Below, piece after piece: positions 5,949 to 46,554 of a DNA stretch of 64,000 nucleotides. Origin of the DNA: Sphingobacterium hungaricum (lineage in GTDB: Bacteria; Bacteroidota; Bacteroidia; Sphingobacteriales; Sphingobacteriaceae); contig NZ_MU158698.1 in assembly GCF_015210005.1 (NCBI RefSeq), forward strand, positions 310,001-374,000, written 5' to 3'. How positions within the stretch are numbered: the first letter of the stretch is position 1; every line of letters starts with the position of its first letter. Made by a program: the position numbers and the translations under genes. The notes beneath the pieces were generated by a model that was given only the letters and a program-made list of their open reading frames with translations, did no database searches and was not told the origin of the DNA.

Positions 5949-8309
5949 TTACTTTTTATTTCCGTAACCGTAGCCATAACCATAGCCGTATCCATAGCCG
6001 TAACCGTATCCATAGCCCATTTTGCCTTTAGGAATACCATTTAACAGAATCGACATATTGGCTAATTTATCTTCTTGATAAATCTTCTCTACCTCTGGAA
6101 GTTGTCTACGATCCATTTTGCCTGCGCGGATGACGAAAATAGTCAAATCTGATATTCGATTAACGATCGCCCCATCGGCTACGACACCAACAGGAACACT
6201 GTCAACGATGATCACATCATACAACGACTTTAAATCATTAATTAGCTCGTCTAAACGAGTACTCAACAGCAACTCAACAGGGTTAGGTGCGATCATCCCG
6301 ATTGGAATAATATCTACGCCTTCAGCTATTCCGTTTCTATAAACAATATCTGATAATAACACAGATTGATCAGACAAATAATGGCTCACTCCTTTACTCG
6401 CAACTGGCATCATAGAACTTAAAGTTCCCTTACGCAAATCAAGATCGAGCAATAAAACTTTCTTTTTCAAAAAACTTAAACTTGCAGCTAAGTTCACGGA
6501 GGTAAATGTCTTACCAGCGCCAATCCCGAATGAAGTAAACGTTACAACCTGCTGAGCATTCTCTGCTGCAGTCATGAAACTTAAATTGGTCCGTAAAATC
6601 CGAAACGCCTCTGTCACCGGATCTGTACCCTGCTCTGTAACAACCAACCGTTGGTTCTCTGAACCTCGTTTTCTATCTGCCAATGGAATGTCCCCTAAAA
6701 AAGGAACAGACACCGCGCCTTCGATATCCTTCCGTGTTCTAACGCCCGTATCCAACATTAGCATTAATAAAAGAATAACTGCTGGCACAACCAATCCGAT
6801 ACCGATCCCCATAGCCATCTTGCGAACGCGACTTGGGTAAATAGGAGAACTCGATCCCGATGCTGGGTCAATAACACGTATGTTATCTTCCGTCATTGCT
6901 TGATTAATTGCATTCTCTTCTCTTTTGTTTAAAAGGTATAGATACAACTCCTCTTTAACCTTCTGTTGTCTTTCGACGGAAAGCATAACACGCTGCTTCT
7001 CAGGGACGGCTAAAACCTGGCCTCGAGCTTTTCTTTCTTCCTTAGAAATATTTTGAATTTTGATATCTAGCCCCGTCAACGTATTATCAACTGCGCGGTC
7101 GATGTTATTTCTCATAGATACAAGTGTCCGATCCAAATCCTGCACTACAGGATTCGCTGAACTGCTTCCTTCTACCAAACGATTTCTTCTTAGCACCGTG
7201 GTATTATATTCAACAATCTGAGCCTCGACATTTGCATCAACTAATCCTGTATTATTTGGAATTAACTCGTTCTTTTTTGAGTCACTAGTTAAATACTCGC
7301 GCATCATTTGAACCAGTTTCTTGTCTGTCTCGGTTTTAGTCCGCTCACTTTGAAATTGTCTCGAATCTGACAAATACATCTCTCCAGCAACTCCGACATC
7401 TACACCTTGATTCGAAGTTTTCAATTGTTCGATATCAGACTCAACGGTACCTAACTCACTCTCAATAATACTCAATCTAGCACGTATAAAATCCGCAGTG
7501 TTTATAGCAATTTGATTTTTATCCTGAATAGAGAACTCATTATATACAGTAATCAAAGTAGTAATCACTTCAGCAGCACGCTCTGGCGAATAATCTTGTA
7601 ACGTAATCTGAAGTAAAGAAGCATCTTCTTCCATCTGCCTAATTTCCAAATTCGCCAAAAACTGACCTGCCAGCGCGTCGGATGAGTATTTCGTTACACG
7701 GATATCTTCATCATAACTTTCCGAATTATAGTAAATGCTAGGAATAATCGTTAAATTTCCGATGGGTGTTTTCACTTCTTTATTCAGCGCAACTTTCAAT
7801 TCTTGACCCTGATTTTCAGCGTCCCAGTTTTTTATAATAACAAAAGAGGAATCAAGAGGTGTTACTGTTAATGCAAAATATTTATCTGATTTTTCTTCAG
7901 ACATTTGGACTTGAACTGGCGACTTAATGTACAACTCGTAATCGCGCAAACCTCTACGAACCGAATAACTAATATTCGAATTAGTTCGTTCAATCGTCTG
8001 ACGCATCAATTCCTTCGAACGTAACTGTAAAATTTCTCCAGCAACGCTGACCGAGTTAAAAGCGGCATTTGTTCGTGTAATCCTAGCGGTAGTCGGCGTG
8101 TTCATTGGCGTCTTGATCATGACCATTTCCGACTGGCTATACATAAAGGGGGTTTTACTATAATCGTATAGGTAATAGCCTCCAAAAACCAGCACGGAAA
8201 GAACAAACCATTTCCAATTAAAAGCTAAGTATTTTAAGATATCTAAAATGTTAACTGATTGATCATTAAGACCTGTAGTCCCTGTGTTATTTTCTACGAC
8301 TTTATTCAT
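5949..8309 (-). CDS. wzc: Wzc-type polysaccharide co-polymerase / tyrosine autokinase
   Basis: This inner-membrane BY-kinase controls chain length and export of the polysaccharide together with the Wza channel. The 786 residues show an N-terminal Wzz domain with TM1 (about 33-48), a long coiled periplasmic part (260-460), TM2 (about 499-519) and a cytoplasmic kinase. The Walker A motif is FGIGAGKT at 593-600 or so, and the Walker A' motif is LLLDLDLRKG near 619-628. The C-terminus is nine Gly-Tyr dipeptides then GNKK. Tyr clusters at this position are autophosphorylated in the family, but a pure (GY)9 tail is unusual. It is the last gene of the leftward EPS run, 8 bp after wza. Confidence 0.93.
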   Translation of the reverse strand: MNKVVENNTGTTGLNDQSVNILDILKYLAFNWKWFVLSVLVFGGYYLYDYSKTPFMYSQSEMVMIKTPMNTPTTARITRTNAAFNSVSVAGEILQLRSKELMRQTIERTNSNISYSVRRGLRDYELYIKSPVQVQMSEEKSDKYFALTVTPLDSSFVIIKNWDAENQGQELKVALNKEVKTPIGNLTIIPSIYYNSESYDEDIRVTKYSSDALAGQFLANLEIRQMEEDASLLQITLQDYSPERAAEVITTLITVYNEFSIQDKNQIAINTADFIRARLSIIESELGTVESDIEQLKTSNQGVDVGVAGEMYLSDSRQFQSERTKTETDKKLVQMMREYLTSDSKKNELIPNNTGLVDANVEAQIVEYNTTVLRRNRLVEGSSSANPVVQDLDRTLVSMRNNIDRAVDNTLTGLDIKIQNISKEERKARGQVLAVPEKQRVMLSVERQQKVKEELYLYLLNKREENAINQAMTEDNIRVIDPASGSSSPIYPSRVRKMAMGIGIGLVVPAVILLLMLMLDTGVRTRKDIEGAVSVPFLGDIPLADRKRGSENQRLVVTEQGTDPVTEAFRILRTNLSFMTAAENAQQVVTFTSFGIGAGKTFTSVNLAASLSFLKKKVLLLDLDLRKGTLSSMMPVASKGVSHYLSDQSVLLSDIVYRNGIAEGVDIIPIGMIAPNPVELLLSTRLDELINDLKSLYDVIIVDSVPVGVVADGAIVNRISDLTIFVIRAGKMDRRQLPEVEKIYQEDKLANMSILLNGIPKGKMGYGYGYGYGYGYGYGYGYGNKK
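5964..6017 (-). repeat. Nine tandem Gly-Tyr codon pairs at the Wzc C-terminus
   Basis: Nine consecutive 6-bp units each encode Gly-Tyr. Codons vary (GGC/GGA/GGT, TAT/TAC), so the repeat is kept at protein level rather than being a fresh DNA slippage product. It gives nine candidate phosphotyrosines. Confidence 0.9.
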
Positions 8310-8317
8310 CTGAAATT

Positions 8318-9124
8318 TTATCTTGTAACATTGATAATAGAAAGGATTAGAGTTAATGAACCAAGGACAGTGCTCAAATACCTCCAGTTTCTCTCTTCTC
8401 TTGGAGTATTGACAGCAGCTTTAGGTTCCACAAAAACAATATCGTTTTGTTGTAGATAATAACTCGGAGAACTAAAAATATCCTTTGATTCGATGTTAGT
8501 AATAATTCTTTTTCTTTCGCCGTTTTCCTCTCTAATTACAGTAATTTTATCTGCAGCAGAATTATTTGTAAGTCCGCCAGCTTCGGTTATCGCTTCCACT
8601 AAGGTTATTCTTCCATCGGGAACATGAATGACTTTCTGTGCCAGCACCGCTCCTGTGACACTGACTTTAAGATTTAATAAATCCACTTTCACTAATGGTT
8701 CATTTATCAATTGATCTGATATTAATCGATTTTGTATCAAATCCCTAACTTCATCAAGGCTTAGTCCCTTTACAGGCTGAGAACCGAGTATAGGAAAGTC
8801 GATTTTACCTTCTCTATCAACTAGGTAACCTGAGGTGTTGGTCGATTGACCGCTATTAGCCAAAGTCGAAATACTTCCGTCGTCACCGACTCTATATGTT
8901 CCAAAGTTTGCATTAAATGGTGCCGCGAGCTCAGGAGTCTTAGCCCTGACTTCAATGTTTAAACGGTCGCCCTCCTTAACGCGCAATACGGAAGATGGCC
9001 CGGACGTATAAACTGAATCTGGAACCATATCATTTACGTATACAATTTTCTTACCTACCATGCACGAGGTCTGGAGGAACACCCCAAGAATTATCAATCC
9101 AAACAGAAACTTTTTCATCTTCAT
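8318..9124 (-). CDS. wza: Wza-type polysaccharide export lipoprotein
   Basis: This outer-membrane polysaccharide exporter has 268 residues. A lipoprotein signal ends at Cys21 (LGVFLQTSC). It is followed by a Poly_export domain (about 45-125, with KEGDRLNIEVRAKTPEL) and an SLBB domain (about 150-225, LKVSVTGAVLAQKVIHVPDG). A C-terminal hydrophobic helix (YLSTVLGSLTLILSIINV) may form the membrane barrel, as in Wza. It is somewhat shorter than E. coli Wza, as is common in Bacteroidota. It overlaps its neighbours by nothing and is separated by 8 bp from wzc and 0 bp from the kinase-like gene upstream, so all three are probably co-transcribed. Confidence 0.9.
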   Translation of the reverse strand: MKMKKFLFGLIILGVFLQTSCMVGKKIVYVNDMVPDSVYTSGPSSVLRVKEGDRLNIEVRAKTPELAAPFNANFGTYRVGDDGSISTLANSGQSTNTSGYLVDREGKIDFPILGSQPVKGLSLDEVRDLIQNRLISDQLINEPLVKVDLLNLKVSVTGAVLAQKVIHVPDGRITLVEAITEAGGLTNNSAADKITVIREENGERKRIITNIESKDIFSSPSYYLQQNDIVFVEPKAAVNTPREERNWRYLSTVLGSLTLILSIINVTR

Positions 9125-10036
9125 TTATTTTAGGTTAATCACTTTATTGAAACATAGCACTGCTGCTTCTCTATCTGGCAAACACGATAATTGTCCAACA
9201 GGTATATTCTTTATTATTTCTTCTAAACTATTCAACATTTGATCGAATAAATTCCTATTCCATCGAATGGAGGAACTACTAGGCAACAAAGCAATTATTG
9301 CTTCTCTACCCGTTTTCCAAATCATTTCATTGTATGGAGCTTGCTTTAGCCTAATAATAGCCTTAACAGGTACACCTTTGTTTTTATAACAAGGTGTTTT
9401 CCCACTCCAAGGTGTACCATAGATAAAAACTTCTCCATTTTCCAAAATACGTATTGCTGGATTATCGTCATTTAGGAGTTTTGCATTCTCAATGTTTTCC
9501 ATCCATAATCGAGCATGTGTACTTTTACCAGTTCCGCTTTTACCCAGAAACGCATATCCATGACCATCCTTTTCTATTACTGAAGCATGTATCAGTATAG
9601 TTTGATGTAATAGTGATGCTTGCGCAAATGTAACCATAATTAACCATCCTAGAATACTATTTCCTTCTAATTCTGATCGAATTGCATATATTTTTGACGA
9701 GCTAAAGTCTTTAGAACTAATCATCCACCAACTTTCATTAGAACTTTCGCTCATAACTTGAGTTACGTAAGTGTCTTCTGTTTCATAAAAACGAAATCGA
9801 TCCCCCCATGTCATTGAAATATCGCTACGAAGGGTTGCATTTGTTAAATCTTCGTCGTGAGGTTCTATTGAAATCGTAATTTCGCTAACTGGCTTTGATA
9901 AATCAACATTAACGGCGTGAAAATCTACAAATGTCGGCAACGCATGATCCGCAACAATTCCTTTAGGTAGACTAACCTTAATCAGGTGATCTGCAACTTG
10001 ATAATCGTATGAACTTAAGTTATTATTCTCTGTCAA
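9125..10036 (-). CDS. HPr-kinase-like / PEPCK-fold ATPase of the peptide cassette
   Basis: The protein has 303 residues. A P-loop FLGKSGTGKSTHARLW (GKSGTGKS at 165-172) is followed by LLNDDNPAIRI and TPWSGKTPCYKNKGVPVKAI, the pattern of HprK-related kinases. It lacks the normal HprK N-terminal domain and there is no HPr gene nearby, so it is unlikely to serve carbon control. Related kinases occur beside PqqD proteins in peptide-modification and exosortase-linked loci (HprK-related kinase A family), and in some lasso-peptide clusters they phosphorylate the peptide. The target here is unknown. The apparent start is TTG at 10036; no ATG lies near the N-terminus. Confidence 0.72.
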   Translation of the reverse strand: MTENNNLSSYDYQVADHLIKVSLPKGIVADHALPTFVDFHAVNVDLSKPVSEITISIEPHDEDLTNATLRSDISMTWGDRFRFYETEDTYVTQVMSESSNESWWMISSKDFSSSKIYAIRSELEGNSILGWLIMVTFAQASLLHQTILIHASVIEKDGHGYAFLGKSGTGKSTHARLWMENIENAKLLNDDNPAIRILENGEVFIYGTPWSGKTPCYKNKGVPVKAIIRLKQAPYNEMIWKTGREAIIALLPSSSSIRWNRNLFDQMLNSLEEIIKNIPVGQLSCLPDREAAVLCFNKVINLK

Positions 10037-10049
10037 TTGATATTCTTTT

Positions 10050-11675
10050 TTAATTCATAAAAATGGTCTGGCTACATTTATTCGATAAATGTAAATCATG
10101 GGTCACGAACAAAATCAACTTACTCTGGCCTGCAATCAATAATCTTTCAACCAATCGATCTGCAGTGTCTTTATCCAACGCAGATGTAACCTCATCGAAC
10201 AGCCAAATGGAAGTTTCTTGCATCATTGCACGTGCAATAGCTATCCGCTGTCCCTGACCTTCTGATAATCCATACCCTGATTCCCCAACAAGCGTATCAA
10301 GCCCATCTGGAAGATCATAAACAAACTCTGCACAAGCCAAGTGCAAGACATAATTTATTCGATCTTCGGTAGCAATCTCTTTATTTATAGTTAGGTTTTC
10401 GCGTATCGTACCACTAAATAAAGTATTACCTTGAGGTACATACGCAAAATTAATCCGATGTTCGCTCGACAATCCAAGCTGTTCGCCATTATTTTCAATC
10501 CAAATATTTCCCTTTTCTGGCTTAATTAAAGCTAAAAACAACCGAATCAATGTTGTCTTTCCTTTACCGCTCGAACCGATAATAGCCGTTGGTTTTCCAT
10601 ATTCAATTTCCGCATTTAAATTATCGATAATGGTGTTGTCATCGTATCTAAAATACACATTTTCCAATTGAATTTTAGTTGGATTGCTTAAATATGTTGA
10701 TTCTTTGATCAGTTCCTTTTCATTATTCTCAAGCTCCAGCAATCGATCAACTGAGGTGCGAAAGCGAATAAATAAAGGAAAGAAACCCACTGATTGGAGA
10801 ATTGGGGTTTGAATCCTGCCGACAAGCTGTAAAAAAGCCGTCATTGTTCCAAATGATATTTGTCCTGCCTGCAACCGAAAAACTCCCCAAATAAATGTTA
10901 GCAAATATCCTCCATTTATGGTGATTTTGATAATGCCTTGAGTCAATGTCGAAAAATTCAGCTGGCTCATTTTCAAATCATAAATATCTTCTTGGCTTTG
11001 ACTCAATTTTTGCGAACGCATTGGGGTTAACCCTAACGCACGGACTAAAACACGAAATTTCAAATTTTCTTGCATCACTTTTGCAAAGTTACTTTCTGCG
11101 CTTTTAACTTCTCGGTTTAATTTTCTCATTTTCCGAAAATATAACTTAGAAAATAAAAAAAGTGGAGATATTGCTACAATCATAAAAGCTAACATGGGAT
11201 CCATTGTCCACAAAAAACCAAAAGAGGCAAGCAACTGCACTACCGTAACAAAAAAGTAGATCGCTGATTGGCTTAACATGACAACCACTTCGGCTCCATC
11301 TGTCTGAATCCGTTGAACCAGATCGCCCGTGTGCCAGTCTTTAACAAACTTCCAGGTCGTTAACATCTGTCCCTCAATCAAATCACGCTGCAAACTAATC
11401 GTCATTCTTACGCGGATTGACTCACTTAACCTATTCGAAGCTAGCCTCAAAAAAACGCCACCTAAAACACTACCTACAGTCCATCCAAGTGTTGCTTTTA
11501 GGCTGCCTTGCACTTCCCCCATCGCAATATCTATCGACAATTTGGATCCGTAAACAAATAAAAGCATGAGCGCAATTCCCGCGAGTTCCATAAGAAGAAC
11601 ACCTAGCAATTGTAATCTATAGCCTTTCGTCAGATTCCATGCCCAACGCAGTTGATATGCTAATGAATAAGACAT
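10050..11675 (-). CDS. ABC transporter, fused permease and ATPase (peptide/lipid exporter type)
   Basis: This is an exporter half-transporter of 541 residues, with a six-helix transmembrane domain (about 1-310) and an ATPase domain. Walker A is GSSGKGKT (367-374), the signature is LSEGQ (470-474; normally LSGGQ) and Walker B is SIWLFDE (489-495) followed by TSALD. There is no N-terminal C39 peptidase domain, so any leader cleavage would need another protease, possibly the S24/S26 peptidase three genes upstream. It lies 5 bp after the nucleotidyltransferase and 13 bp before the kinase-like gene. Its cargo is inferred, not shown. Confidence 0.9.
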   Translation of the reverse strand: MSYSLAYQLRWAWNLTKGYRLQLLGVLLMELAGIALMLLFVYGSKLSIDIAMGEVQGSLKATLGWTVGSVLGGVFLRLASNRLSESIRVRMTISLQRDLIEGQMLTTWKFVKDWHTGDLVQRIQTDGAEVVVMLSQSAIYFFVTVVQLLASFGFLWTMDPMLAFMIVAISPLFLFSKLYFRKMRKLNREVKSAESNFAKVMQENLKFRVLVRALGLTPMRSQKLSQSQEDIYDLKMSQLNFSTLTQGIIKITINGGYLLTFIWGVFRLQAGQISFGTMTAFLQLVGRIQTPILQSVGFFPLFIRFRTSVDRLLELENNEKELIKESTYLSNPTKIQLENVYFRYDDNTIIDNLNAEIEYGKPTAIIGSSGKGKTTLIRLFLALIKPEKGNIWIENNGEQLGLSSEHRINFAYVPQGNTLFSGTIRENLTINKEIATEDRINYVLHLACAEFVYDLPDGLDTLVGESGYGLSEGQGQRIAIARAMMQETSIWLFDEVTSALDKDTADRLVERLLIAGQSKLILFVTHDLHLSNKCSQTIFMN

Positions 11676-11680
11676 CCTAT

Positions 11681-12775
11681 CTAATGAACAAATTTTGAGT
11701 AGAATTGAGTTACTGGGAAGAAAATAGCTTCCATTGGAGCATAAGGGATATACTTCAGGAAATTACTTTTCAAGCGACTTACAGAATCTACACGAACATT
11801 ATCCGCACGTTCTTTCTCTAGATTAACCCTTGAATCATAAAACCCAAAATTCCCCGCTGTCAAAATTTCTTCCATCATCCAATCTGCATTCTTATCTTCC
11901 TGCATTGGAAATGGTAAATATTCTTTTGGCAAACCTATGAATTTCACTAAAAGAACATGCAGTAGTTCGATCCATTTTAGAATTCCCAATCTTTTATAAA
12001 CAGCTTTCAATTTCCCCCCGTCAAACAAATCTTTATAGACATAACAAATACGTGCAGAATCGCATAACTGACGCATACCAATTCCAAAAGATAATAGATG
12101 CTTTAAGATATGCGCATTAATTTGAACAAAGGTCAACAAAGGCGATGGTAAAAAGACCGTCTCCCCTTCTATGGTTAATTCTTGCTTTTTATTAAATTCT
12201 TCTTTTTCAATTTTTCTAAGAAATCCGTAAGAAAACGGATTATGGATATCAAATATTTTCTTGTGATGTTCTACTTCACATTGATTCCAACTATAACTGC
12301 AACTAAATCCTGCTGTAAAGGTTATTTCGACCCCCAAATTAGAAAGTTTTCGATTTACGGCATCATAATCCTTTTTATTCTGAAGATACCAATCAATGTC
12401 ACCGCAAACACGGTGCAAAGGATTAATGTAGGTGCTAGCAATCCCCTGACCTTTCAGTAAAAGTGGTTGAATCGTAAGGTTTTTAAAAAATTTTGCTTGC
12501 TGGCTAATGATTTTATTCATCCACAAATTCCTGCGTTCAATGCGATCGACTTTTACAGTCCATTCTAACAACAAGTTCTTGGGAGGAAAATACTCAACAG
12601 GTAATTGGTTTAGTCCATCAAAAACAATCGCTTCGACGGTATGATTCGAAGACATGATAAAAACTTCTCTCCATTGCTCATTGTTCAAAGGAAACGAACC
12701 TGACAACTCGATAGCTCGATTCCAAAGACCTGACTGCAATAACGAAAAAAAAACATCACGAACCACATTTGCCAT
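11681..12775 (-). CDS. Nucleotidyltransferase-family protein (NTP_transf_5-like)
   Basis: The protein has 364 residues. It carries LLLKGQGIASTYINP (about 105-119) followed by RVCGDIDWYL (122-131). The G-D-I-D motif (Asp126, Asp128) matches the metal-binding pair of pol-beta-type nucleotidyltransferases of the uncharacterised NTP_transf_5 family. Members are often found next to PqqD-like proteins and HprK-like kinases in Bacteroidota, Paenibacillus lasso-peptide and exosortase loci. The reaction, perhaps nucleotidylation of a peptide, is not established. It starts 3 bp after the PqqD-like gene, so they are tightly coupled. Confidence 0.7.
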   Translation of the reverse strand: MANVVRDVFFSLLQSGLWNRAIELSGSFPLNNEQWREVFIMSSNHTVEAIVFDGLNQLPVEYFPPKNLLLEWTVKVDRIERRNLWMNKIISQQAKFFKNLTIQPLLLKGQGIASTYINPLHRVCGDIDWYLQNKKDYDAVNRKLSNLGVEITFTAGFSCSYSWNQCEVEHHKKIFDIHNPFSYGFLRKIEKEEFNKKQELTIEGETVFLPSPLLTFVQINAHILKHLLSFGIGMRQLCDSARICYVYKDLFDGGKLKAVYKRLGILKWIELLHVLLVKFIGLPKEYLPFPMQEDKNADWMMEEILTAGNFGFYDSRVNLEKERADNVRVDSVSRLKSNFLKYIPYAPMEAIFFPVTQFYSKFVH

Positions 12776-12778
12776 ACC

Positions 12779-13051
12779 TTACTGATTTTGCAAAACGCCT
12801 TGCTCTTTAAAGATTGCCACTAGATTTTCAACATCTTTAAGGACTTGTTCATTATCTACCTCGTATCTTTCTTTCAAGAGATCGACCATAGTTTCAGAAG
12901 TAAAATCTTGACCTTTTAATTCCTTCCACAACCAAGCAGCTGTTTCGTTCAATGTGTATACTTTAGACATATCGACCATGTCTTGACTTGGATCCACCAC
13001 AATATAATCGTTACCGATTTGTCTAAGTGTCAAATCATCTCGTAATCTCAT
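12779..13051 (-). CDS. PqqD-family peptide-binding protein
   Basis: The protein has 90 residues, the normal size for a stand-alone PqqD fold (RiPP recognition element). The sequence YTLNETAAWLWKELKGQDFT is the typical PqqD core (V..LN..A..IW.L..G), followed by a winged-helix-like C-terminal half (MVDLLKERY, LKDVENLVAIFKEQGVL). Proteins of this family bind the leader of a ribosomally made peptide and present it to modifying enzymes. No precursor peptide gene was found beside it. It is 16 bp after the peptidase gene and 3 bp before the nucleotidyltransferase. Confidence 0.85.
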   Translation of the reverse strand: MRLRDDLTLRQIGNDYIVVDPSQDMVDMSKVYTLNETAAWLWKELKGQDFTSETMVDLLKERYEVDNEQVLKDVENLVAIFKEQGVLQNQ

Positions 13052-13067
13052 AACGTATAAAATTTAC

Positions 13068-13514
13068 TCATTTTTTAATCCAATTTAATAAACGACGTAC
13101 TGGACGTGCCCAGTACCAAATAAACGCTGCATTTATTGTCAAAAACGAATGCACATCTATTTTGCCTTTATCGTTGAAAGCTTCGGCAACAATTGCCCAA
13201 ACCTCTTCTTTTTTTAATCGTTCTATCTGTTGCAAGTTCGCATCTCCTGCAAGCCATATTTCATCATCCATAATTTTCACTATGCGATGCAAAATATATC
13301 CTTGCTCTGTATCGGCTAGCACGATCCGACCTAATTTAAGATCGGCGTTCTCAATAGGTTTTAAAACAACTCGATCTCCATGTTTCAAAAAAGGATTCAT
13401 GCTGTTGCCCGCGACCCGTATGGTCACTCGCTGTCCTTTATCAAGATATACTTTAAGTTCTTCAAAAAAAAGGTTGTTTGCAAGAGTTATCTTCTTTTTT
13501 GAGGAAATCTCCAT
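13068..13514 (-). CDS. S24/S26-type serine peptidase (signal peptidase-like)
   Basis: The protein has 148 residues from the ATG at 13514 (a GTG at 13523 would add three residues). Ser38 in VAGNSMNPFLKHGD is the expected nucleophile. The second box YILHRIVK places His76 where the archaeal/ER-type and LexA-like enzymes have their general base, whereas bacterial SPase I has Lys. A C-terminal hydrophobic stretch (FLTINAAFIWYWARP) may anchor it in the membrane. In this cassette it is the candidate protease for a modified or exported peptide; that role is inferred. A TATATTTG -7 box lies 30-37 bp upstream. Confidence 0.78.
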   Translation of the reverse strand: MEISSKKKITLANNLFFEELKVYLDKGQRVTIRVAGNSMNPFLKHGDRVVLKPIENADLKLGRIVLADTEQGYILHRIVKIMDDEIWLAGDANLQQIERLKKEEVWAIVAEAFNDKGKIDVHSFLTINAAFIWYWARPVRRLLNWIKK

Positions 13515-13543
13515 GGGTATCACAATTTTTAAAAGATTAAAAG

Positions 13544-28976: not shown

Positions 28977-29918
28977 TTATATTAAGTTGCTGTTAAGATA
29001 ATCAATTATCTCATCCAAATAAACATCCTTTAGAACAATGTTTTTATCTTGATCTAAAATATAAATCGTTGGTGAGGCTTTTAAATCGTACAAATCCTTA
29101 TTCAAGATTGATGCGTTATCATTGAACGCATTAACCCAGTTCGAAGGAATAGACGATTGATAATCTTTCCAAATGCTTTGGTCTCCCAGAGCATATACTG
29201 CAAGGATCTTTAATTTATTTTGTTTGATCAAATCATTCAAAAGTCCCAAATTATTCATTTCCGCAATTGAACGTTCACAGCTCGAACAGCCTGGTTCGTA
29301 GAAAAATAGCAAAGTAGGAACTGAGGATGAGTTCCACAAGGTTTCCTTTTTCCCAGAAGGCAGTGTGTATGAAAAATTTGTGGCTTTTGAGCCTGGTCTA
29401 TTTTTGCGAACCATTTCTAAAATCACTCCTTGTTTGATTTTTTCAGTTTCGTCTAATAGAGAAGATTGCGTATAAAACTGTAAAACAGGCTCATAAAACA
29501 ATTCATTCCGCATCGGTGAGTTTGGATCAAACAAATACCTCTCCAACTGGGTTTTAAAATAAAAAAATGAGGTTTCATTCGCTTCTGACTTTGTCAATAA
29601 ATTTGTAATGCTTGTTGACGCAACATCAAAAGGAACTTGATTTAACAAGTTAATAAAATTGACAAGTTCTTGTTCGGTAATATCTGGATTATTCAGTGTC
29701 AGCGTATCCTGGAAATCAAAATTATCCCAATAATGTGTTAGCAAATATGCTTTCTTATCCTCCTCATTTGTCAGATTTTCAGGAATTGTGGGTAAAGTAA
29801 AGGCCTTTGCGGTATTCGCTTCTTGATTTGTAGAGGCAGATTGTTTTTTATCATTTTGACAGGAAAACAATACACAAAAAATAAACAGGTTTAGTAGAAC
29901 TAATCGAATTTTCATCAT
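28977..29918 (-). CDS. Thioredoxin-like (TlpA/DUF5106-type) lipoprotein
   Basis: The protein has 313 residues from ATG 29918 (MMKIRLVLL). A longer frame exists but overlaps the HAD-like gene and lacks a signal peptide, so it was rejected. A lipoprotein signal ends at Cys20 (VLFSCQ). The N-terminal half is a helical DUF5106-like domain with PENLTNEEDKKAYLLTHYWDNFDFQD. The C-terminal half is an AhpC/TSA-thioredoxin fold with the redox motif FYEPGCSSCERS (CxxC). It probably reduces disulphides in the periplasm. It starts 4 bp after the HAD-like gene. Confidence 0.85.
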   Translation of the reverse strand: MMKIRLVLLNLFIFCVLFSCQNDKKQSASTNQEANTAKAFTLPTIPENLTNEEDKKAYLLTHYWDNFDFQDTLTLNNPDITEQELVNFINLLNQVPFDVASTSITNLLTKSEANETSFFYFKTQLERYLFDPNSPMRNELFYEPVLQFYTQSSLLDETEKIKQGVILEMVRKNRPGSKATNFSYTLPSGKKETLWNSSSVPTLLFFYEPGCSSCERSIAEMNNLGLLNDLIKQNKLKILAVYALGDQSIWKDYQSSIPSNWVNAFNDNASILNKDLYDLKASPTIYILDQDKNIVLKDVYLDEIIDYLNSNLI

Positions 29919-29922
29919 AGGT

Positions 29923-30345
29923 TTAGAAAAATTTACGCCAACCTTTTTTAGTTTCTTGTTGGACTTCAAGATCATTAAGTTTAAAGTCTCTAAACAGATC
30001 CACACCCTTGCGCCTAGCTCGCACAGCTTGATAGACCACGCCCCAATCTGGCAATCCACCGACATTTCGATCATCGATAAATAAATCAGCAGTCAATTTT
30101 CGAGCAGCTTTTTCTCTAGATTCTTCAGGAAAATTAGCATTGTGGGCAAAAAAAACAATCCCAAATTTAGCACAGTATTTTATAGCTTCCTCTAGCAATT
30201 CTCCTTCCCTAACCGTCCACAAAATCAATCGGTGTCCATCTTCTTGCAGTTTTTTTAATGTATCTAGAGCGAAAGGTATTGGTTTTCCAATTTGAGGATA
30301 TTTATGTTCAACAATGGTTCCATCAAAATCAACTGCTATAATCAT
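29923..30345 (-). CDS. HAD-like hydrolase (BT0820 type)
   Basis: The protein has 140 residues. The first HAD motif is VDFDGTIVEHK (Asp6, Asp8). LILWTVREGELLEEAI and DLFIDDRNVGGLP follow; the last supplies acidic metal ligands. The compact size, without a cap domain, matches the BT0820-like family, structurally known but without an assigned substrate. It likely shares a transcript with the thioredoxin-like lipoprotein that follows at 4 bp. Confidence 0.85.
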   Translation of the reverse strand: MIIAVDFDGTIVEHKYPQIGKPIPFALDTLKKLQEDGHRLILWTVREGELLEEAIKYCAKFGIVFFAHNANFPEESREKAARKLTADLFIDDRNVGGLPDWGVVYQAVRARRKGVDLFRDFKLNDLEVQQETKKGWRKFF

Positions 30346-38077: not shown

Positions 38078-40054
38078 TTATTGAACTTCTTTTAACCATT
38101 TTTCGATCAAATTCATCATAATTACCGAATTCGCGACTTTGGTACTTGCCCAAACACTATTTCCAAAAGAACTTATTATTGGCCTTTTGTTCGCATCGAG
38201 TAAAAATGGATACGAGGTGTTTCCTACCGATTGAGATGCTTGCGTCCAACCTGGGTTATACACTGTAAATCCTCCATCGGAAAGCCAATAAAAATTGCTC
38301 GTTTTTGATTTGAAAAAAACAATATTATCTGTAAAGTCTGCATCTCTTCCTAACACATCAATCATAGAAAGATTAGCATTTAATAATGAATGCCCAGCAT
38401 TAGCATCATCATAGATATTTTGATTAGCTCCAATACCGAATGAGCCATTTAAAATTGTATTATTTGTTGCGTTACCCAATCTCCAATACACATCATTTGC
38501 TCCACCATTCGAAAGAATACCGTTACTTTTGCTTCCAGTTGAATGGGTATCGGAACCCGAATAAAAACTCACTAGCGACTTTTCTCCCGGACTATCTTCC
38601 AAGTTTTCACCATAATACAAAACTCGACCTCCAGCAGCAACAAATCCTCTAATAGCCGTCACATCACTAGTCGTTGGACGGTAATCATAGCTAACTAAGA
38701 GAAGTTTATAACCCGCTGAATTTAGATCATCTAAACCACCTGAACCTACATCCCTACTTGTCACACTCCAATCATCGTAGCTAGTCGTTATGACTTTGCC
38801 GTTAGGGCCAAAATTATTTTGATTAAACATGGCCGCATATAAACCCGAATTTGCATGTCCAGTTCTTACACCTACGGCTTTCTTAGACTCTGCTTCCGAG
38901 AATATTTTATAATAAGCATATACTCCAACTTCCAGTATTTTAAGCTTTTTAATATCTATTTTAGGTTTTAATTCGATCTTGGCTGTATAATTATACCCTT
39001 CGCTAGTTTGGACTGGCGTAAATGTAAAGGTTCTGTTCGTAAATCCTGTCAAGCCTGCCGTAGTATTAATAGCGAGACCTATAATATTAACATCCATACT
39101 AGGAATAGATGTTGCCGGAGCTGTATAATAATATGCCCTTCTAACCGACGCATTAATTTCTTTGAAATCTATTGTCGTTGTTGAAAGAGTACTTGGAGCA
39201 GAAGCAAATCCTCCAGTCTTCAAGTCTAATGCGCCCCCTCTAAAATAATTAGCTGAACCTAATCTCCCACTTAAAGCCGTAAATGTTCCTGGATACGTAG
39301 AAGCATTGATCTCAATTGTAATCCGGTGAAGCTTGTGCGCAAAAGTTATCTTCACGGGAACAGTAACATCCTGGCCATCTCCTTCAACGCCAGGAATAAC
39401 ACCCGTAAAACCGGCAGCGTGAATCAAGTCCCGTTGATCGGAAGCAATTTTTCCATTAGTTGGCTCTTGAGGTTCATTGTTATCATTAAATGAATAGGCT
39501 ATCCAGTAATAACTCTTGCCCTTTTCGACAGGAATACTTAATGGCGAGCCGGCTACTCCTATTGTAGAGGAAATAGCTGCAGAAGTTCCAGTTGCGTCAG
39601 GATACAGTATCACTCGATATTTCACGTCTTTTACTAAAGGACTCTTTGTAGCGACAGGATTGATGTTATTTAAATTTCCTACGCCCACAGCGCTTAATTT
39701 AGACGCTGTAGAACCGTTAGAATTGGCTCCATGATCTTTTCCCATGGAAACTTCAGCATAAAAGTCACCAAAATCAACAATAGTCGGCTTTACATTCTCT
39801 GTAACCGGACTTAGATTAGAACGGATAGATGTACTTGCATTCTTATCAAGAGATCCATCAATCTGTTCTTCAATCCCATCAATAGTTATAGCTAATTTTG
39901 TACCTGTGTCTGCAGGATTGACATTTATTTCATTTTTACAACTTACAAGTAAAATCGATATAAATAGAACAGGCAAAACAATATTGAAGCTAAAGCTTTC
40001 TTTAACTCGATTCAACATAGTTACATATATTCGGTGATGATGTTTAATTTTCAT
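38078..40054 (-). CDS. Fimbrillin-like lipoprotein, module 1
   Basis: The protein has 658 residues from ATG 40054; the longer open frame overlaps the small gene upstream and was rejected. Lipobox ISILLVSC gives an outer-membrane lipoprotein. Early residues INVNPADTGTKLAITIDGIEE and the later VPVKITFAHKLHRITIEI match the Mfa/FimA-like (fimbrillin) sandwich. The last 270 residues form a different domain: KLLLVSYDYRPTTSDVTAIR followed by GGRVLYYGENLEDS looks like a Rossmann/class I amidotransferase-like fold, without a recognisable Cys nucleophile. It is very similar to module 2. Likely a surface protein, perhaps a fimbrial base or tip subunit. Confidence 0.75.
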   Translation of the reverse strand: MKIKHHHRIYVTMLNRVKESFSFNIVLPVLFISILLVSCKNEINVNPADTGTKLAITIDGIEEQIDGSLDKNASTSIRSNLSPVTENVKPTIVDFGDFYAEVSMGKDHGANSNGSTASKLSAVGVGNLNNINPVATKSPLVKDVKYRVILYPDATGTSAAISSTIGVAGSPLSIPVEKGKSYYWIAYSFNDNNEPQEPTNGKIASDQRDLIHAAGFTGVIPGVEGDGQDVTVPVKITFAHKLHRITIEINASTYPGTFTALSGRLGSANYFRGGALDLKTGGFASAPSTLSTTTIDFKEINASVRRAYYYTAPATSIPSMDVNIIGLAINTTAGLTGFTNRTFTFTPVQTSEGYNYTAKIELKPKIDIKKLKILEVGVYAYYKIFSEAESKKAVGVRTGHANSGLYAAMFNQNNFGPNGKVITTSYDDWSVTSRDVGSGGLDDLNSAGYKLLLVSYDYRPTTSDVTAIRGFVAAGGRVLYYGENLEDSPGEKSLVSFYSGSDTHSTGSKSNGILSNGGANDVYWRLGNATNNTILNGSFGIGANQNIYDDANAGHSLLNANLSMIDVLGRDADFTDNIVFFKSKTSNFYWLSDGGFTVYNPGWTQASQSVGNTSYPFLLDANKRPIISSFGNSVWASTKVANSVIMMNLIEKWLKEVQ

Positions 40055-40070
40055 ATTATAGCACAATGAT

Positions 40071-40256
40071 TTAAAAATAAGTTTGTTGGGTACCAGGGTT
40101 ACTACTTTCTTTCCAGTCTTCAACGTCTGGGTAATTTGCATCAGTTCCTTCAATAGTAATCTTAGCACCCGATCCTGTAGCTATCCCCTCCTCCATCTCT
40201 AGATAGAATACTTCTATTTTGGGAGCGATATACTCTAATAATTTTTTTCCATTCAT
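40071..40256 (-). CDS. 61-residue peptide, module 1
   Basis: The peptide begins KKLLEYIAPKIEVFYLEMEE, then GIATGSGAKITIEGTDANYP, VEDWKESS and a C-terminal TYF. It has no signal peptide. Its stop is 16 bp before the lipoprotein ATG, so the two are co-transcribed. It shares most residues with the module 2 peptide and the pattern LLxYxAPxIxVxxLxxExxIAxxS with module 3. Similar short proteins precede fimbrillin-like genes in other Bacteroidota (general knowledge). The role is unknown; it could be a chaperone-like partner or a processed peptide. Confidence 0.75.
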   Translation of the reverse strand: MNGKKLLEYIAPKIEVFYLEMEEGIATGSGAKITIEGTDANYPDVEDWKESSNPGTQQTYF

Positions 40257-41411: not shown

Positions 41412-43394
41412 TTATTGAACTTCTTTTAACCACTTTTCGATCAAATTCATGATAATTACCGAATTCGCGACTTTGGTACTCGCCCAAACGCTATTTCCAA
41501 AAGAACTAAGCATTGGGCTTTTATTTGCGTCCAATAAAAATGGATAAGATATGTTGCCCACAGATTGCGACGCTTGCGTCCAAGCAGGATTATATACTGT
41601 AAACCCTCCATCTCCAATCCAGTAAAAATTACTGGTCTTCGATTTAAAGAAGACGACATTACCTGCAAAATCAGCATCTGTTGCCAACACATCGATCTTA
41701 GACAGGTCGGCTCCTACCAGGGAATGACCTGCGTTTGCATCATCATAAACAGTTTGATTGGCCCCGGCACCAAATGAACCATTCAAAATCGTGTTACTTG
41801 TTGCGTTCCCTAGTCGCCAATATACATCATTTGCTCCGCCATTCGAAAGGACTCCATTGGTTTTACTACCTGTAGAATGAGTATCTGAACCTGAATAAAA
41901 CTTAACTAGCTGTTTTTCCCCTGGACTATCTTCCAAGTTTTCGCCGTAATACAAAACTCGACCTCCAGCAGAAACAAATGTCTTTATCGCCGCTACATCA
42001 GCATCTGTCGGGCGGTAGTCATAGCTGACCAACAAAAGCTTATAGCCAGCTGAATTTAAGTCGTCTAATCCACCTGAACCTACATCCCTACTTGTAACAT
42101 TCCAATCGTTATAACTAGTTGTAATCAGCTTACCGGAAGAGCCAAAATTCTTTTGATTATACATAGCGGCATACAATCCTGAATTAGCATGTCCAACAGC
42201 TGTACCGGGAGTCTTTTTAGATTCAGCCTCAGATAATATTTTATAATAAGAGACCGTACCAACCTCTAATATTTTAAGCTTCTTGATATCTATTGTAGGC
42301 TTTAGCTCAATTTTCGCAGTATAGTTATAACCCTCGCTTGTTTGGACTGGTGTAAATGAAAAAGTTCTGTTAGTAAAGCCCTTAAGCCCTGCCGAGGTAT
42401 TAACAACCAGAGCCCCGATAGTGACATTCATACTTGGAATGGATGTGATAGGTGCAGTATAATAGTACGCCCTTCTTACTGAATTGTTAATAACTTTAAA
42501 ATCTATTGTTGTTGTCGAAAGGGAGCTTGGAGCTGGAGAGAATGCTCCAGTTTTTAAATCTAATGTCCCACCTCTAAAATAATTAGCCGAACCTAAAGTT
42601 CCAGTTAAAGTTTGGAATGTTCCAGGATATGTTGAAGCATTGACCTCGATGGTGATGCGGTGAAGCTTGTGAGCGAAGGTAATCTTTACAGGCACCGTAA
42701 TATCCTGCCCATCACCTTCAACACCAGGAATAACACCCGTGAACCCAGTTGCGTGAATCAAGTCCCTTTGATCGGAATTGATCTTCCCGCTGCTAGGTTC
42801 CTGAGGATCATTATTATCGTTAAATGAATATGCTACCCAATAGTAATTTTTACCTTTTTCAACAGGAATACTTAATGGCGATCCGGCTATTCCTATTGTG
42901 GAAGAAATAGCGGCAGAGGTTCCCGATGCATCGGGATAAAGTATAATACGATATTTGACATCCTTTAATAAAGGACTCTTCGTGGCAACAGGATTGATAT
43001 TTTTTAAATTTCCTACACCTACAGCGCTTAAATTAGTACGTGGTGAACTAGTTAACTTGACCCCGTTATCCTGTTGCATGGATACTTCAGCATAAAAATC
43101 ACCGAAACTAACCACAGTCGGCCTTTCAGCATCATCCACATCCGAATAGCTAATCTTCGACTTTATAGCTGTACTTGCGTTCTTATCAAAAGATCCTTCA
43201 ATCTGCTCTTCAATCCCATCAATAGTAATAGCCAATTTTGTACCTGTATCAGTAGGATTGACATCTATTTCATTTTTACAACTTACAAACAAAATCGAAA
43301 TAAGTAGAACGGATAAAACAACTTTAAAGGTAAAACTTTCTTTAACTCGATTCAACATAGTTAAATATATCTGTTTAGTATGTTTAATATTCAT
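41412..43394 (-). CDS. Fimbrillin-like lipoprotein, module 2
   Basis: The protein has 660 residues; ATG 43394 or the internal ATG at residue 13 (MLNRVKES) are both possible. The lipobox Cys is residue 39 (ISILFVSC), or 27 from the second start, which is the more usual signal length. Domain order and most residues equal module 1: IDVNPTDTGTKLAITIDGIE, VPVKITFAHKLHRITIEV, then the C-terminal KLLLVSYDYRPTDADVAAIK and GGRVLYYGENLEDS part. Module 1 and 2 are clearly recent duplicates. It is 15 bp after its peptide gene. Confidence 0.75.
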   Translation of the reverse strand: MNIKHTKQIYLTMLNRVKESFTFKVVLSVLLISILFVSCKNEIDVNPTDTGTKLAITIDGIEEQIEGSFDKNASTAIKSKISYSDVDDAERPTVVSFGDFYAEVSMQQDNGVKLTSSPRTNLSAVGVGNLKNINPVATKSPLLKDVKYRIILYPDASGTSAAISSTIGIAGSPLSIPVEKGKNYYWVAYSFNDNNDPQEPSSGKINSDQRDLIHATGFTGVIPGVEGDGQDITVPVKITFAHKLHRITIEVNASTYPGTFQTLTGTLGSANYFRGGTLDLKTGAFSPAPSSLSTTTIDFKVINNSVRRAYYYTAPITSIPSMNVTIGALVVNTSAGLKGFTNRTFSFTPVQTSEGYNYTAKIELKPTIDIKKLKILEVGTVSYYKILSEAESKKTPGTAVGHANSGLYAAMYNQKNFGSSGKLITTSYNDWNVTSRDVGSGGLDDLNSAGYKLLLVSYDYRPTDADVAAIKTFVSAGGRVLYYGENLEDSPGEKQLVKFYSGSDTHSTGSKTNGVLSNGGANDVYWRLGNATSNTILNGSFGAGANQTVYDDANAGHSLVGADLSKIDVLATDADFAGNVVFFKSKTSNFYWIGDGGFTVYNPAWTQASQSVGNISYPFLLDANKSPMLSSFGNSVWASTKVANSVIIMNLIEKWLKEVQ

Positions 43395-43409: not shown

Positions 43410-43595
43410 TTAAAAATAAGTTTGTTGAGTACCAGTACTAGAACTTTCTTTCCAGTCTTCAAGGTCTGGGTAATTTGCGTCAGTCCCTTCAATAGTAATC
43501 TTAGCACTTGATCCTGTAGCTATCCCCTCCTCCATTTCAAGATAGAGTACTTCAATTTTTGGAGCGACATACGCTAATAATTTTTGGTGATTCAT
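43410..43595 (-). CDS. 61-residue peptide, module 2
   Basis: The sequence QKLLAYVAPKIEVLYLEMEE, GIATGSSAKITIEGTDANYP and a C-terminal TYF differs from the module 1 peptide at about ten positions only. Changes cluster at the N-terminus and just before the C-terminus, while IEV.YLEMEEGIATGS and the Asp/Glu-Trp segment (LEDWKESS) are kept. Co-transcribed with the lipoprotein. Role unknown. Confidence 0.75.
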   Translation of the reverse strand: MNHQKLLAYVAPKIEVLYLEMEEGIATGSSAKITIEGTDANYPDLEDWKESSSTGTQQTYF

Positions 43596-44457: not shown

Positions 44458-46326
44458 TTACTGCGCATCCAATAATGCCTGTCCGATAATATTCATTAAT
44501 ACAGTAGAATTGGCAACAGATGTTGGAGTACCCGGCGTTGGTGTATACCAAGCTCCAATATAAGGCGCACCCGTCGATGTTAACAAAAATGGAAAAGAAT
44601 TTGCCCCATTCGCAGACCCAGGAACGTTGTATGAAGAATTATAAACATCAAAGCCACCATCTCCAACCCAGTAAAACTTTCGGGTTTTTGATTTAAACAT
44701 TGCGACCTGTGCCGCATTTGTAGAATTCGTTGCAAGCACATCTATTAAAGATAGATTAGGACTGGTAATCACAAATCCTGCACCAGCATCGTTACCAACT
44801 TGCTTACTTCTTGCATCACCAAACTTCCCATTTAAAACTGCATTCGTAGTTGTATTAGCTAACAAGCCCCAACTTGTATAAGATGTTGTGCCTGCATATG
44901 TGCTTAATAGAGAAGCTTCTCCAGCTGAACCAGGATTTTCAACCGCGTATATGACTGTCCCCCCATTATTTAGGAAGGTCGTAATCGCCGTCGCTTCAGC
45001 AGTTGTAAGAATATAAGCGTAACCGACGTATAAAAGTTTATAAGAACCTGTATTCAAATCAGTCAATTCACCAGCTACTCCCGGACGAGAAGTCAACGCC
45101 CAATCCGTGTTTAAGGTAGGTATGATGCCGGTCGGCCCAAAGTTGCTAGCACTCTTAAGAGCATGGTAAATTCCGGAGTAAGGATGGTCCATAATCGCAT
45201 ATGGCGCTGACCCTACTGATAATATTTTAAAGTTAACTGGGTTAGGCAGCGGCTTGAAATCTACTCTAGCCGTATAACTAGATGACTCACTATTCGCAAT
45301 CATCGGCCAAGTAAAAGTCCTTGCAGTGGAAAACGACTTAGGGCCACCAGTCGTAGAAATCGTCATAGAATTAATCCGCACTTGAAAATTAGCCAGCGAA
45401 GTGACAGGCATGGTGTAATAGGTAGCTGTTTTTACAGCATTGTTCGTAACAGGATTGAAGGTAATTGCTGTACTTGGCATAACTGTATTAGTCGAGTTGG
45501 CCGTTAACCCTCCCGTTTTTAAATCAAGTGTCCCTGCTCTGAAATAGTTATTAGCTCCCAAATTTGCGGATATTGCTGTAATTATGCCAGGATAGTTAGC
45601 AGCGGTTACTTCTACTTTTATGCGTGAGAGTTTATGCCTTAATCTAATTTTTAGAGGTACTTTAATTTCCTGCCCATCCCCCACTGTGCCCGGGATAGTA
45701 ATAGGTATACCCACAGCATGCAACAAATCACGTTGATCTGTAGGCAACAAACCATCCGAAGGAGTTCCAGGATCTGTATCATCATTAAAAGAATAGACAA
45801 CCCAATAATAATTTTTACCTTTTTCTACAGGGATATTTAGTGCTGTTCCAGCCGTTCCTAGGGTTGAGGAAACAGGTACAGTAGAACTAGAGCTGTTATC
45901 GTATACCAAAACCCGATATTTGACTCCAGTGGTTAACGCGGTTACGGCCGCCTGCTTAGCGACGTTATTTAAATTTCCGGGCCTCACAGCACTTACCTTA
46001 GTTAACTCAGACTGATTATTACTATAAAAATCTTGCTGTAAAGATGTTACCGCATTGAATTCGCCGAAACTTTCGACAGAAGCTTCATCGGCCAATGCCA
46101 TAGTTTGTTTCGAAAAGTGGGGATGAACAGAGGTGCTTGCATCCTTATCTATTGTGGCTTGACCTTCGTCTTCTATCCCTTCAATAGTAAGAACCAGTCG
46201 CGTTCCATCATCTATAATTTCATTTTGCATATTCTCTTTACAACTTGCAAAGAATAGGCATGAGAGTATAAAACTGCTAAAAATTCCAATTTTATACGCA
46301 CGGATTTTTATGGCTTGTGTTGACAT
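44458..46326 (-). CDS. Fimbrillin-like lipoprotein, module 3
   Basis: The protein has 622 residues with lipobox LSCLFFASC. The sequence is diverged from modules 1-2 but colinear: IIDDGTRLVLTIEGIEDEGQ, then VPLKIRLRHKLSRIKVEV as fimbrillin-like strand, and a C-terminal KLLYVGYAYILTTAEATAIT with GGTVIYAVENPGSAGEAS part. The ending NIIGQALLDAQ parallels NLIEKWLKEVQ. It is likely the oldest copy. The gap to its peptide gene is 45 bp, longer than in the other modules. Confidence 0.72.
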   Translation of the reverse strand: MSTQAIKIRAYKIGIFSSFILSCLFFASCKENMQNEIIDDGTRLVLTIEGIEDEGQATIDKDASTSVHPHFSKQTMALADEASVESFGEFNAVTSLQQDFYSNNQSELTKVSAVRPGNLNNVAKQAAVTALTTGVKYRVLVYDNSSSSTVPVSSTLGTAGTALNIPVEKGKNYYWVVYSFNDDTDPGTPSDGLLPTDQRDLLHAVGIPITIPGTVGDGQEIKVPLKIRLRHKLSRIKVEVTAANYPGIITAISANLGANNYFRAGTLDLKTGGLTANSTNTVMPSTAITFNPVTNNAVKTATYYTMPVTSLANFQVRINSMTISTTGGPKSFSTARTFTWPMIANSESSSYTARVDFKPLPNPVNFKILSVGSAPYAIMDHPYSGIYHALKSASNFGPTGIIPTLNTDWALTSRPGVAGELTDLNTGSYKLLYVGYAYILTTAEATAITTFLNNGGTVIYAVENPGSAGEASLLSTYAGTTSYTSWGLLANTTTNAVLNGKFGDARSKQVGNDAGAGFVITSPNLSLIDVLATNSTNAAQVAMFKSKTRKFYWVGDGGFDVYNSSYNVPGSANGANSFPFLLTSTGAPYIGAWYTPTPGTPTSVANSTVLMNIIGQALLDAQ

Positions 46327-46371: not shown

Positions 46372-46554
46372 CTACAAAAAGCTATTCTGGCTGCCAGTTT
46401 GTTCGGTCCAATCATCGACTTCGGGAGTGATTGCATTTGTATCACTTCCAACAGTTACAGTAGCACCAGAAGTAGCCGCAATGCTTTGTTCTAAATCTAA
46501 CCAAGTCACGGTAATGGTAGGAGCAACGTACTCCAATAAACTTCTGCTATTCAT
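46372..46554 (-). CDS. 60-residue peptide, module 3
   Basis: The sequence RSLLEYVAPTITVTWLDLEQ then SIAATSGATVTV, PEVDDWTEQTG and C-terminal SFL. It keeps the same hydrophobic/acidic pattern and the xIAxxSGAxxT segment as modules 1 and 2 but few other residues, showing which positions are constrained. It ends in a hydrophobic residue after an aromatic one, like the others. Role unknown. Confidence 0.72.
   Translation of the reverse strand: MNSRSLLEYVAPTITVTWLDLEQSIAATSGATVTVGSDTNAITPEVDDWTEQTGSQNSFL

Follow-up and report, generated by a model that had tools for sequence, protein, structure and literature searches.

A probable peptide-maturation cassette in an exopolysaccharide operon of Sphingobacterium hungaricum, its probable dispersed precursors and its likeness to the LPP pathway of Bacillota

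The window analysed here is a stretch of 64,000 nucleotides from Sphingobacterium hungaricum (assembly GCF_015210005.1, contig NZ_MU158698.1, positions 310,001 to 374,000; genome size 4.06 Mb). Within a set of exopolysaccharide (EPS) genes it carries five consecutive genes that resemble the machinery for maturing a ribosomally synthesized and post-translationally modified peptide (RiPP). We consider it probable that this cassette is the Bacteroidota counterpart of the LPP pathway and works in trans on about 12 small precursors scattered over the genome. LPP (Linear Polyphosphorylated Peptides) is a RiPP family of Bacillota, described for lppAKBSDN of Paenibacillus alginolyticus (PMC13381572, Popov et al., Nat Commun May 2026; this and the other published accounts cited below are drawn on in part).

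The five genes are real open reading frames (ORFs) on the minus strand, situated between a GT4 glycosyltransferase gene (13592-14710) and wza/wzc. Starting from the glycosyltransferase, the first encodes an S24/S26 serine peptidase of the archaeal/Sec11 type (13068..13523, with a GTG start or an ATG at 13514; PF00717, 3.1e-8), proposed to be an LppS-like leader peptidase; it scores 35.2 bits against TIGR02228, under the cut-off of 51.85. It is followed by a PqqD-type RiPP recognition element (RRE; 12779..13051; PF05402, 9.1e-17), the proposed leader-binding protein of the LppB/B1 kind and the sole PF05402 match in the genome, by an LppN/PsmN-like NTP_transf_5 nucleotidyltransferase, here NTP5 (11681..12775; PF14907, 1.6e-33), and by an LppD-like ATP-binding cassette (ABC) exporter (10050..11675; PF00664 and PF00005), among whose Pfam matches there is no peptidase domain. 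The last gene encodes a putative precursor kinase, HprK-like and akin to LppK and BsfK (9125..10036, TTG start); it was recognized from a structure model, as it has no Pfam match above cut-off and its NCBIfam matches are all sub-cut-off. The spacings along the cassette are 16, 3, 5 and 13 bp, and the gene for a Wza-type polysaccharide export protein (8318..9124, minus strand; PF02563, 5e-18) abuts at 0 bp, so that the five genes and wza likely form one operon. The original prediction, made from the letters of the window, had described five consecutive genes spaced 3-16 bp apart with these same assignments, embedded between a glycosyltransferase and wza/wzc, and coordinates, Pfam matches and the kinase model bear this out.

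The other operon partner, a Wzc-type chain-length/tyrosine kinase (5949..8309, minus strand), scores 131.6 bits against TIGR01007 (cut-off 108.05) and has a GYGYGYGYG repeat as its C-terminus, which we take to be the typical tyrosine cluster of such kinases. On the 5′ side of the cassette, up to 28652, the genes encode mainly glycosyltransferases together with a pyruvyl transferase, a nitroreductase-like protein, an epimerase and a PF00953 protein.

Between 8310 and 14710 there is no precursor-like ORF: all ORFs of at least 20 aa were listed there, and none is among the genome-wide matches to the family described below. The earlier impression that the cassette has no visible precursor therefore holds locally and fails for the genome, where a search at E 0.001 or better finds 12 members of one precursor family. 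Three of them lie inside the window, on the minus strand, and none of the 12 is within 26 kb of the cassette; we conclude that the precursors act in trans. The three in the window are the small ORFs that had been named as candidate peptides beforehand (60-61 aa), and all of them turn out to be members of the family: precursor A (40071..40256, 61 aa) has the leader YIAPKIEVFYLEMEEGIA and a predicted core that starts TGS, and precursors B (43410..43595, 61 aa) and C (46372..46554, 60 aa) belong to the same aligned family. Up to 16 precursors per genome are found in the genus, and six of the small peptides that were scanned gave no Pfam or NCBIfam match better than E 0.1. The closest paralogues in the window, A and B, differ by 8, 4 and 10 substitutions at codon positions 1, 2 and 3, a pattern which, in this small sample, fits a translated frame.

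The leader of these peptides follows a rigid pattern, YxxPxh...ExE.GIA|xxS, where the bar marks the predicted cut. Among 24 ORFs, aligned from a set of 27 without L060, L086 and one of L089, the Y, P, E, S and W are invariant. In a larger set of 98 distinct ORFs YxxP is present in 95, and of these 95 a serine stands at Y+20 in 94, a glutamate at +13 in 94, a small residue at Y+15 in 93 and at Y+17 in 94, and I, V, L, M or F at Y+5 in 92; because the ORFs were found by profile, and the better-fitting YxxP was taken where one ORF had two, this conservation is partly selected. The predicted core has a median length of 32 residues and a net charge of -4, and it contains Trp in 89 of 95 cases.

The precursors are usually paired with a lipoprotein gene. 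In the window there are three such pairs at 38-47 kb, all on the minus strand and with the lipobox assigned by eye. The partner of A is a fimbrillin-like lipoprotein (38078..40168; Mfa_like_1 1.7e-5, sub-cut-off) for which translation probably begins further downstream than the listed GTG; that of B is likewise fimbrillin-like (41412..43394; Mfa_like_1 2.5e-7, over cut-off), a label which is loose, since the Mfa_like_1 cut-off is passed in two of the three relatives that were scanned and, of the three proteins in the window, by one. The partner of C (44458..46326) has only a sub-cut-off match to DUF4350, and in all three proteins the C-terminal part shows sub-cut-off similarity to this domain. 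By eye, a lipobox gene follows each of the 12 precursors in this genome. For 81 of the 98 precursors a next gene (at least 100 aa, or an open frame) begins within 150 bp on the same strand, and it is lipoprotein-like in 76 of the 81 with a looser detector and in 65 of 81 with a stricter one; the looser detector gave 117 of 570 for control genes that have such a next gene. The other 17 have no next gene within 150 bp, and among them is a subfamily in which the lipoprotein gene is instead upstream of the precursor (L208, L209, L211, L212). Some loci of relatives likewise have these enzymes next to the gene for a lipoprotein of some 600 aa, which a small ORF immediately precedes.

With most of the small ORFs just upstream of a lipoprotein gene (median stop-to-start distance 20 bp in 65 pairs), one could regard them as leader ORFs that regulate the lipoprotein genes in cis, and assume another, unseen substrate for the cassette. 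We find this very unlikely, as the five residues invariant in the 24 aligned ORFs form a motif at the protein level, in the subfamily just mentioned the ORF comes after the lipoprotein gene, the leader matches the RRE motif, and the presence of the ORFs tracks that of the enzymes, as described further below.

Tandem genes at 34613-35278 and 35771-36424 encode similar proteins with the motif SNWFIGAG.GPQV.FGDHD, which by eye look like outer-membrane barrels; similar genes immediately precede precursor pairs at other places in the genome (L085, 2915-4141; L088, 8932-10119). A DUF5106 and thioredoxin-like lipoprotein is encoded at 28977..30074 on the minus strand (PF17127, 3e-45), and homologues of it directly precede the S24 gene in six other cassettes of the genus (L048, L061, L192, L193, L194, L196).

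The conservation of the cassette was followed in 40 stretches of about 20 kb each around NTP5 genes of 31 other genomes; these neighbourhoods were chosen as best matches and second copies and are not a random draw, and L032, a probable duplicate of G132:C8, was left out of the counts. The order GT4-S24-PqqD-NTP5-ABC-HprK-wza-wzc is kept in 18 of the 40, and by this recurrence the cassette is no chance cluster. Three of the enzyme families were also scanned across the genus (93 genomes), with the kinase found in 72, PqqD in 71 and NTP5 in 71; 70 genomes have all three, 20 have none and three are mixed. The co-occurrence of the five families in relatives, which the original prediction had called for, is thus seen both as adjacency and genus-wide for the three scanned families, and the opposite outcome, five genes that are separate in relatives and never occur together, was not encountered. 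PqqD is single-copy in 54 of the 71 genomes that have it. In a family-level sample of 301 genomes NTP5 (E 1e-10) is present in 55, namely 54 of the own genus and one of another genus (G039), whose locus (L047) carries the whole cassette.

The set is also found split. In L192, L193, L194 and L196 S24-PqqD-ABC-HprK stand behind the DUF5106-thioredoxin lipoprotein gene, with NTP5 elsewhere, and in L195, L197 and L205 there is a PqqD-HprK pair, again with NTP5 elsewhere. Decay is seen as well: one genome (G247) has a second NTP5 copy with internal stop codons (L052), and another (G295) has a decaying EPS cassette with no ABC gene found and the kinase in pieces (L039), with other cassette genes present on a separate contig (L056).

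The precursors and the enzymes are distributed together. Among the 93 genomes of the genus, precursors are found in 69 of the 70 with all three enzymes and in 6 of the 20 with none (Fisher p 6e-11, uncorrected for relatedness). In the family sample precursors (E 1e-4) occur in 57 of the 301 genomes, 56 of the genus plus G039, so outside the genus NTP5 and precursor are each found only in the same single genome. A class-level sample gave precursors in 4 of 395 genomes, three of the own genus and one weak match (9e-5) in G672, at a threshold that would miss more distant relatives. The peptide in G672, from another family of the class, is a similar one of 48 aa, KPYIAPGIEVIEVKIERGFAGSG (L207, 9555-9701), encoded right after a 1576-aa protein, with no S24, PqqD, NTP5 or kinase gene within 9 kb. 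At the level of neighbourhoods, 17 of the 40 stretches have a precursor at most 10 kb from NTP5 (1.4 expected), or 10 of 31 when one stretch per genome is counted (1.1 expected). In L048, L053, L055, L056, L057, L064, L067 and L069 it is in one gene run with NTP5 and cassette genes, as in the run precursor-lipoprotein-PqqD-NTP5-ABC-HprK of L055, L067 and L064, and in L054 it shares a run with PqqD and the kinase.

Folds and residues point in the same direction. The model of PqqD (predicted local distance difference test, pLDDT, 87) has the order b-b-b-a-a-a and its best Foldseek matches are lasso-peptide RRE-leader complexes, TbiB1 (VIA Z 10.9) and TfuB1 (VIA Z 10.3). It contains the three-strand sheet that binds leaders; a model lacking the peptide-binding strand had been named beforehand as an outcome that would refute the original prediction. 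Judged from this fold and its residues, the hallmark of a lasso B1 protein, an RRE with a [Y/W]xxPxL-like leader, appears to be present. In the alignment (the window protein and 27 of 32 others) N35 (27 of 28) and D73 (28 of 28) align with N33 and D70 of LppB, which hold the leader Pro and Tyr (PMC13381572); this pairwise alignment is a weak one (E 0.84), and LppB numbering was matched to the chain through the residues named in the paper. The kinase model (pLDDT 92) matches HprK/P and PEPCK in Foldseek and has the HprK/PEPCK fold. H150, G165, G168, G170, K171, S172, D190 and D191 are invariant in 25 of 25 aligned kinases (the window and 24 of 28; the broken L039 and the duplicates or near-copies L032, L035 and L036 were left out), so that all eight residues of the BsfK motif are kept, with equal spacing up to the Walker serine. 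In NTP5, K108, G109, R122, G125, D126 and D128 (K-G and G-D-x-D) are invariant among 32 aligned proteins, the window and 31 of 43; fragments, such as those of L052, were left out. Searching the PDB with profiles built from the kinase and NTP5 alignments yielded nothing informative. The peptidase has a profile match to Sec11 (7p2q, 3.7e-5), with Ser41, His79, Asp94 and Glu101 invariant in 23 of 23 (the window and 22 of 23).

These results also bear on whether the substrate is a peptide. The cassette is inside an EPS operon whose other genes are mostly for glycosyltransferases, and its enzymes could modify an EPS intermediate, with PqqD as a stray adaptor. PqqD matches peptide-bound RREs, the kinase has a peptide-kinase motif and the precursors are linked to the enzymes, all of which makes such a role highly improbable. 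That the cassette modifies and exports a peptide, as the original prediction had proposed, is well supported, and the small ORFs it named belong to the family of precursors.

What the analysis establishes is which genes are present and in what order, how they co-occur and are linked, their motifs and folds, and the lack of the lasso B2 family; all the chemistry of the proposed pathway is inferred. Signal-peptidase sites have small residues at -3 and -1. The S26-type peptidase would cut after the Ala in (G/S)-I-A|xxS, as suggested by the position and by small residues at -3/-1, and such a site would account for the small residues at Y+15 and Y+17. A cut after Y+17 would make the Ser at Y+20 core residue 3. 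Before this, the PqqD protein would take up the leader's YxxPxh motif as an extra beta strand, as its fold and residues suggest; lasso and LPP leaders are recognized through [Y/W]xxPx[L/V] (PMC10368454, PMC13381572). The kinase may then phosphorylate the invariant Ser, by analogy with BsfK and LppK, both of which phosphorylate core Ser3 (PMC10368454, PMC13381572). In the weakest step of the proposal, the nucleotidyltransferase might further modify the Ser phosphate in the way suggested by PsmN, the lasso nucleotidyltransferase tied to hexoses on phospho-Ser in pseudomycoidin (PMC9266682). Cleavage would release a linear, acidic core of about 32 residues, mostly with Trp, which the ABC exporter presumably moves out, and the product could work at the cell surface, in a setting of EPS export, with the lipoprotein encoded beside each precursor.

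Several observations weigh against the proposal that the cassette is an LPP-like maturase for these precursors. The S24 peptidase was undetected in eight stretches checked for it (L039, L042, L045, L053, L055, L059, L064, L067). Six genomes without the enzymes have precursor matches (G053, G305, G311, G166, G187, G323), and a sensitive kinase profile search of these six gave nothing real (best E 0.1); conversely, G181 has the enzymes and no precursor was found there. The match in G323 looks like a remnant, and its upstream lipoprotein partner is missing (L210). In G053, G305 and G311 the matches are mostly divergent precursor-like ORFs beside a lipoprotein gene, with several pairs (L199-L202), so some such peptides must use another maturase or need none, and these three genomes may have a second one. 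As to the likeness to LPP itself, the PqqD profile scores 33.4 bits with TfuB1, 19.7 with PbaB1 (9x90) and 14.1 with LppB (9x8z); PqqD is thus nearer to TfuB1 than to LppB, and common descent with the LPP of Bacillota is unsupported. Finally, the catalytic residues of LppS are S29, H68 and D93 (PMC13381572), and the third may be replaced here, where the invariant acids are D94 and E101.

The position of NTP5 bears on what the product may be. A wza or wzc homologue (blastp against the two window proteins, E 1e-15) is present in 34 of the 40 NTP5-centred stretches, even where PqqD and the kinase are encoded tens of kb off or on a different contig (L050, L058, L060, L063, L065), and no wza or wzc was found in nine stretches that surround detached genes for PqqD, the kinase or both. 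This hints at a link between the nucleotidyltransferase step and the polysaccharide, in which case the product would be a peptide-sugar conjugate. NTP5 could attach a sugar to the peptide through its Ser phosphate, making the core a tag or anchor between the EPS and the partner lipoprotein; PsmN adds hexoses to a phosphorylated Ser in pseudomycoidin (PMC9266682), and LppN, which showed no activity when expressed heterologously, has been suggested to require a partner (PMC13381572). Here, as for the suggestion in the original prediction that the peptide may be attached to the polysaccharide or regulate it, the argument is one of neighbourhood, and genes of one operon may stay together for the sake of expression; moreover, neither a donor nor an acceptor of the sugar is known here, and the part of the review that covers PsmN leaves its being a glycosyltransferase undecided (PMC9266682). 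On balance we think such a conjugate unlikely. A more detailed version is, to our minds, quite unlikely: NTP_transf_5 would link phospho-Ser3 to EPS or to a lipid-linked intermediate and the paired fimbrillin-like lipoprotein would bind the tag, with every pair tethering polysaccharide to its own surface protein, giving a ribosomally coded barcode for surface assembly in which one maturase from an EPS operon serves a dozen precursors.

For the pathway that we favor, in which the cassette matures the dispersed precursors in the manner of LPP, the known systems closest in content are lasso peptides with tailoring enzymes, LPP, and a few PqqD- or peptidase-containing systems. Of the last group, the HPr-rel-A system and the SynChlorMet cassette combine PqqD with an HprK-like protein. 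The scores here are far under cut-off: 28.1 of 200 bits for the kinase with HprK_rel_A (TIGR04352), a candidate rejected on this score, and 26.2 of 125 bits for TIGR04249. The maturation protease of nickel superoxide dismutase is an S24/S26 peptidase that removes a propeptide; our peptidase scores 28.3 bits against TIGR02754, with a cut-off of 63.25, and no gene for this dismutase is among the operon genes scanned.

The lasso tailoring systems of paeninodin, pseudomycoidin and Bsf (PadeK, PsmK-PsmN, BsfK-BsfB1) share with the cassette an RRE, an HprK-like kinase, a nucleotidyltransferase and an ABC exporter (PMC9266682, PMC10368454), and further a [Y/W]xxPxL leader, the kinase motif H-G-G-G-K-S-D-D in an HprK fold and, in BsfK, the core Ser3 as target (PMC10368454). 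Lasso clusters of rumen bacteria have kinase, PqqD and nucleotidyltransferase genes as well (PMC7533575). In contrast to these systems, the cassette has no Transglut_core3 leader peptidase and no cyclase, and leader removal is assigned to the S26-type peptidase. PF13471 (lasso B2, Transglut_core3) was found in none of the 93 genus genomes at E 0.001, with a control that matched in 2 of 14, and a lasso peptide pathway was rejected on this ground. An Asn-synthase-type cyclase is absent from the window genes scanned (5949-28652, two of them without a Pfam match; no genome-wide search was made). All parts but the peptidase do occur in paeninodin-type and Bsf lasso clusters (PMC9266682, PMC10368454), and the cassette might in principle be what remains of a decayed lasso cluster, already without B2 and C and in the course of being lost. 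We regard this as scarcely credible, as the catalytic motifs are intact in every aligned sequence (the broken kinase of L039 having been left out), the order of genes is the same in 18 neighbourhoods and PF13471 is missing throughout the genus.

The closest likeness is to LPP. Its core, an archaeal-type signal peptidase, an RRE, an HprK-like kinase, an NTP transferase and an MsbA-like exporter (PMC13381572), corresponds to the same five proteins here, all adjacent in the window and in the 18 neighbourhoods. In both cases, as far as the LPP account covers these points, the genes are embedded in polysaccharide or capsule loci, no cyclase is among the core genes, the exporter is MsbA-like, the leader peptidase (here a proposed one) is of signal-peptidase type, the leader carries YxxP and, if cut after Y+17, the core has an invariant Ser at position 3. 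The differences start with the host phylum, Bacteroidota rather than Bacillota, to which LPP was called restricted; the main text of the LPP report contains no word starting with "bacteroid", while its supplements could list a case, and a limited check of the open-access literature found no report of such a pathway in Sphingobacterium. There are 12 precursors here, against one to three per LPP cluster, and in Sphingobacterium they are usually paired with a lipoprotein. The leader ends in GIA rather than FET, the residues between YxxP and the Ser (HQ, FET) are unshared, and the distance from Tyr to Ser is 20 here and 18 in LPP. The genus has no lasso B2, and its PqqD scores nearer to TfuB1 than to LppB. 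We conclude that the pathway probably works like LPP, membership by descent being left unsupported by the RRE scores. The final product of LPP and the role of its nucleotidyltransferase are left without an answer in the parts of that report used here (PMC13381572), and the many precursors per genome with their usual lipoprotein partner make the question of LPP function testable. The apparent LPP machinery is common in this one genus, where 70 of 93 genomes have the three scanned enzymes together, and it would show how one RiPP maturase can serve many distant loci. New with respect to LPP are the phylum, the use of one maturase that usually serves many dispersed precursors, and the pairing of precursor and lipoprotein.

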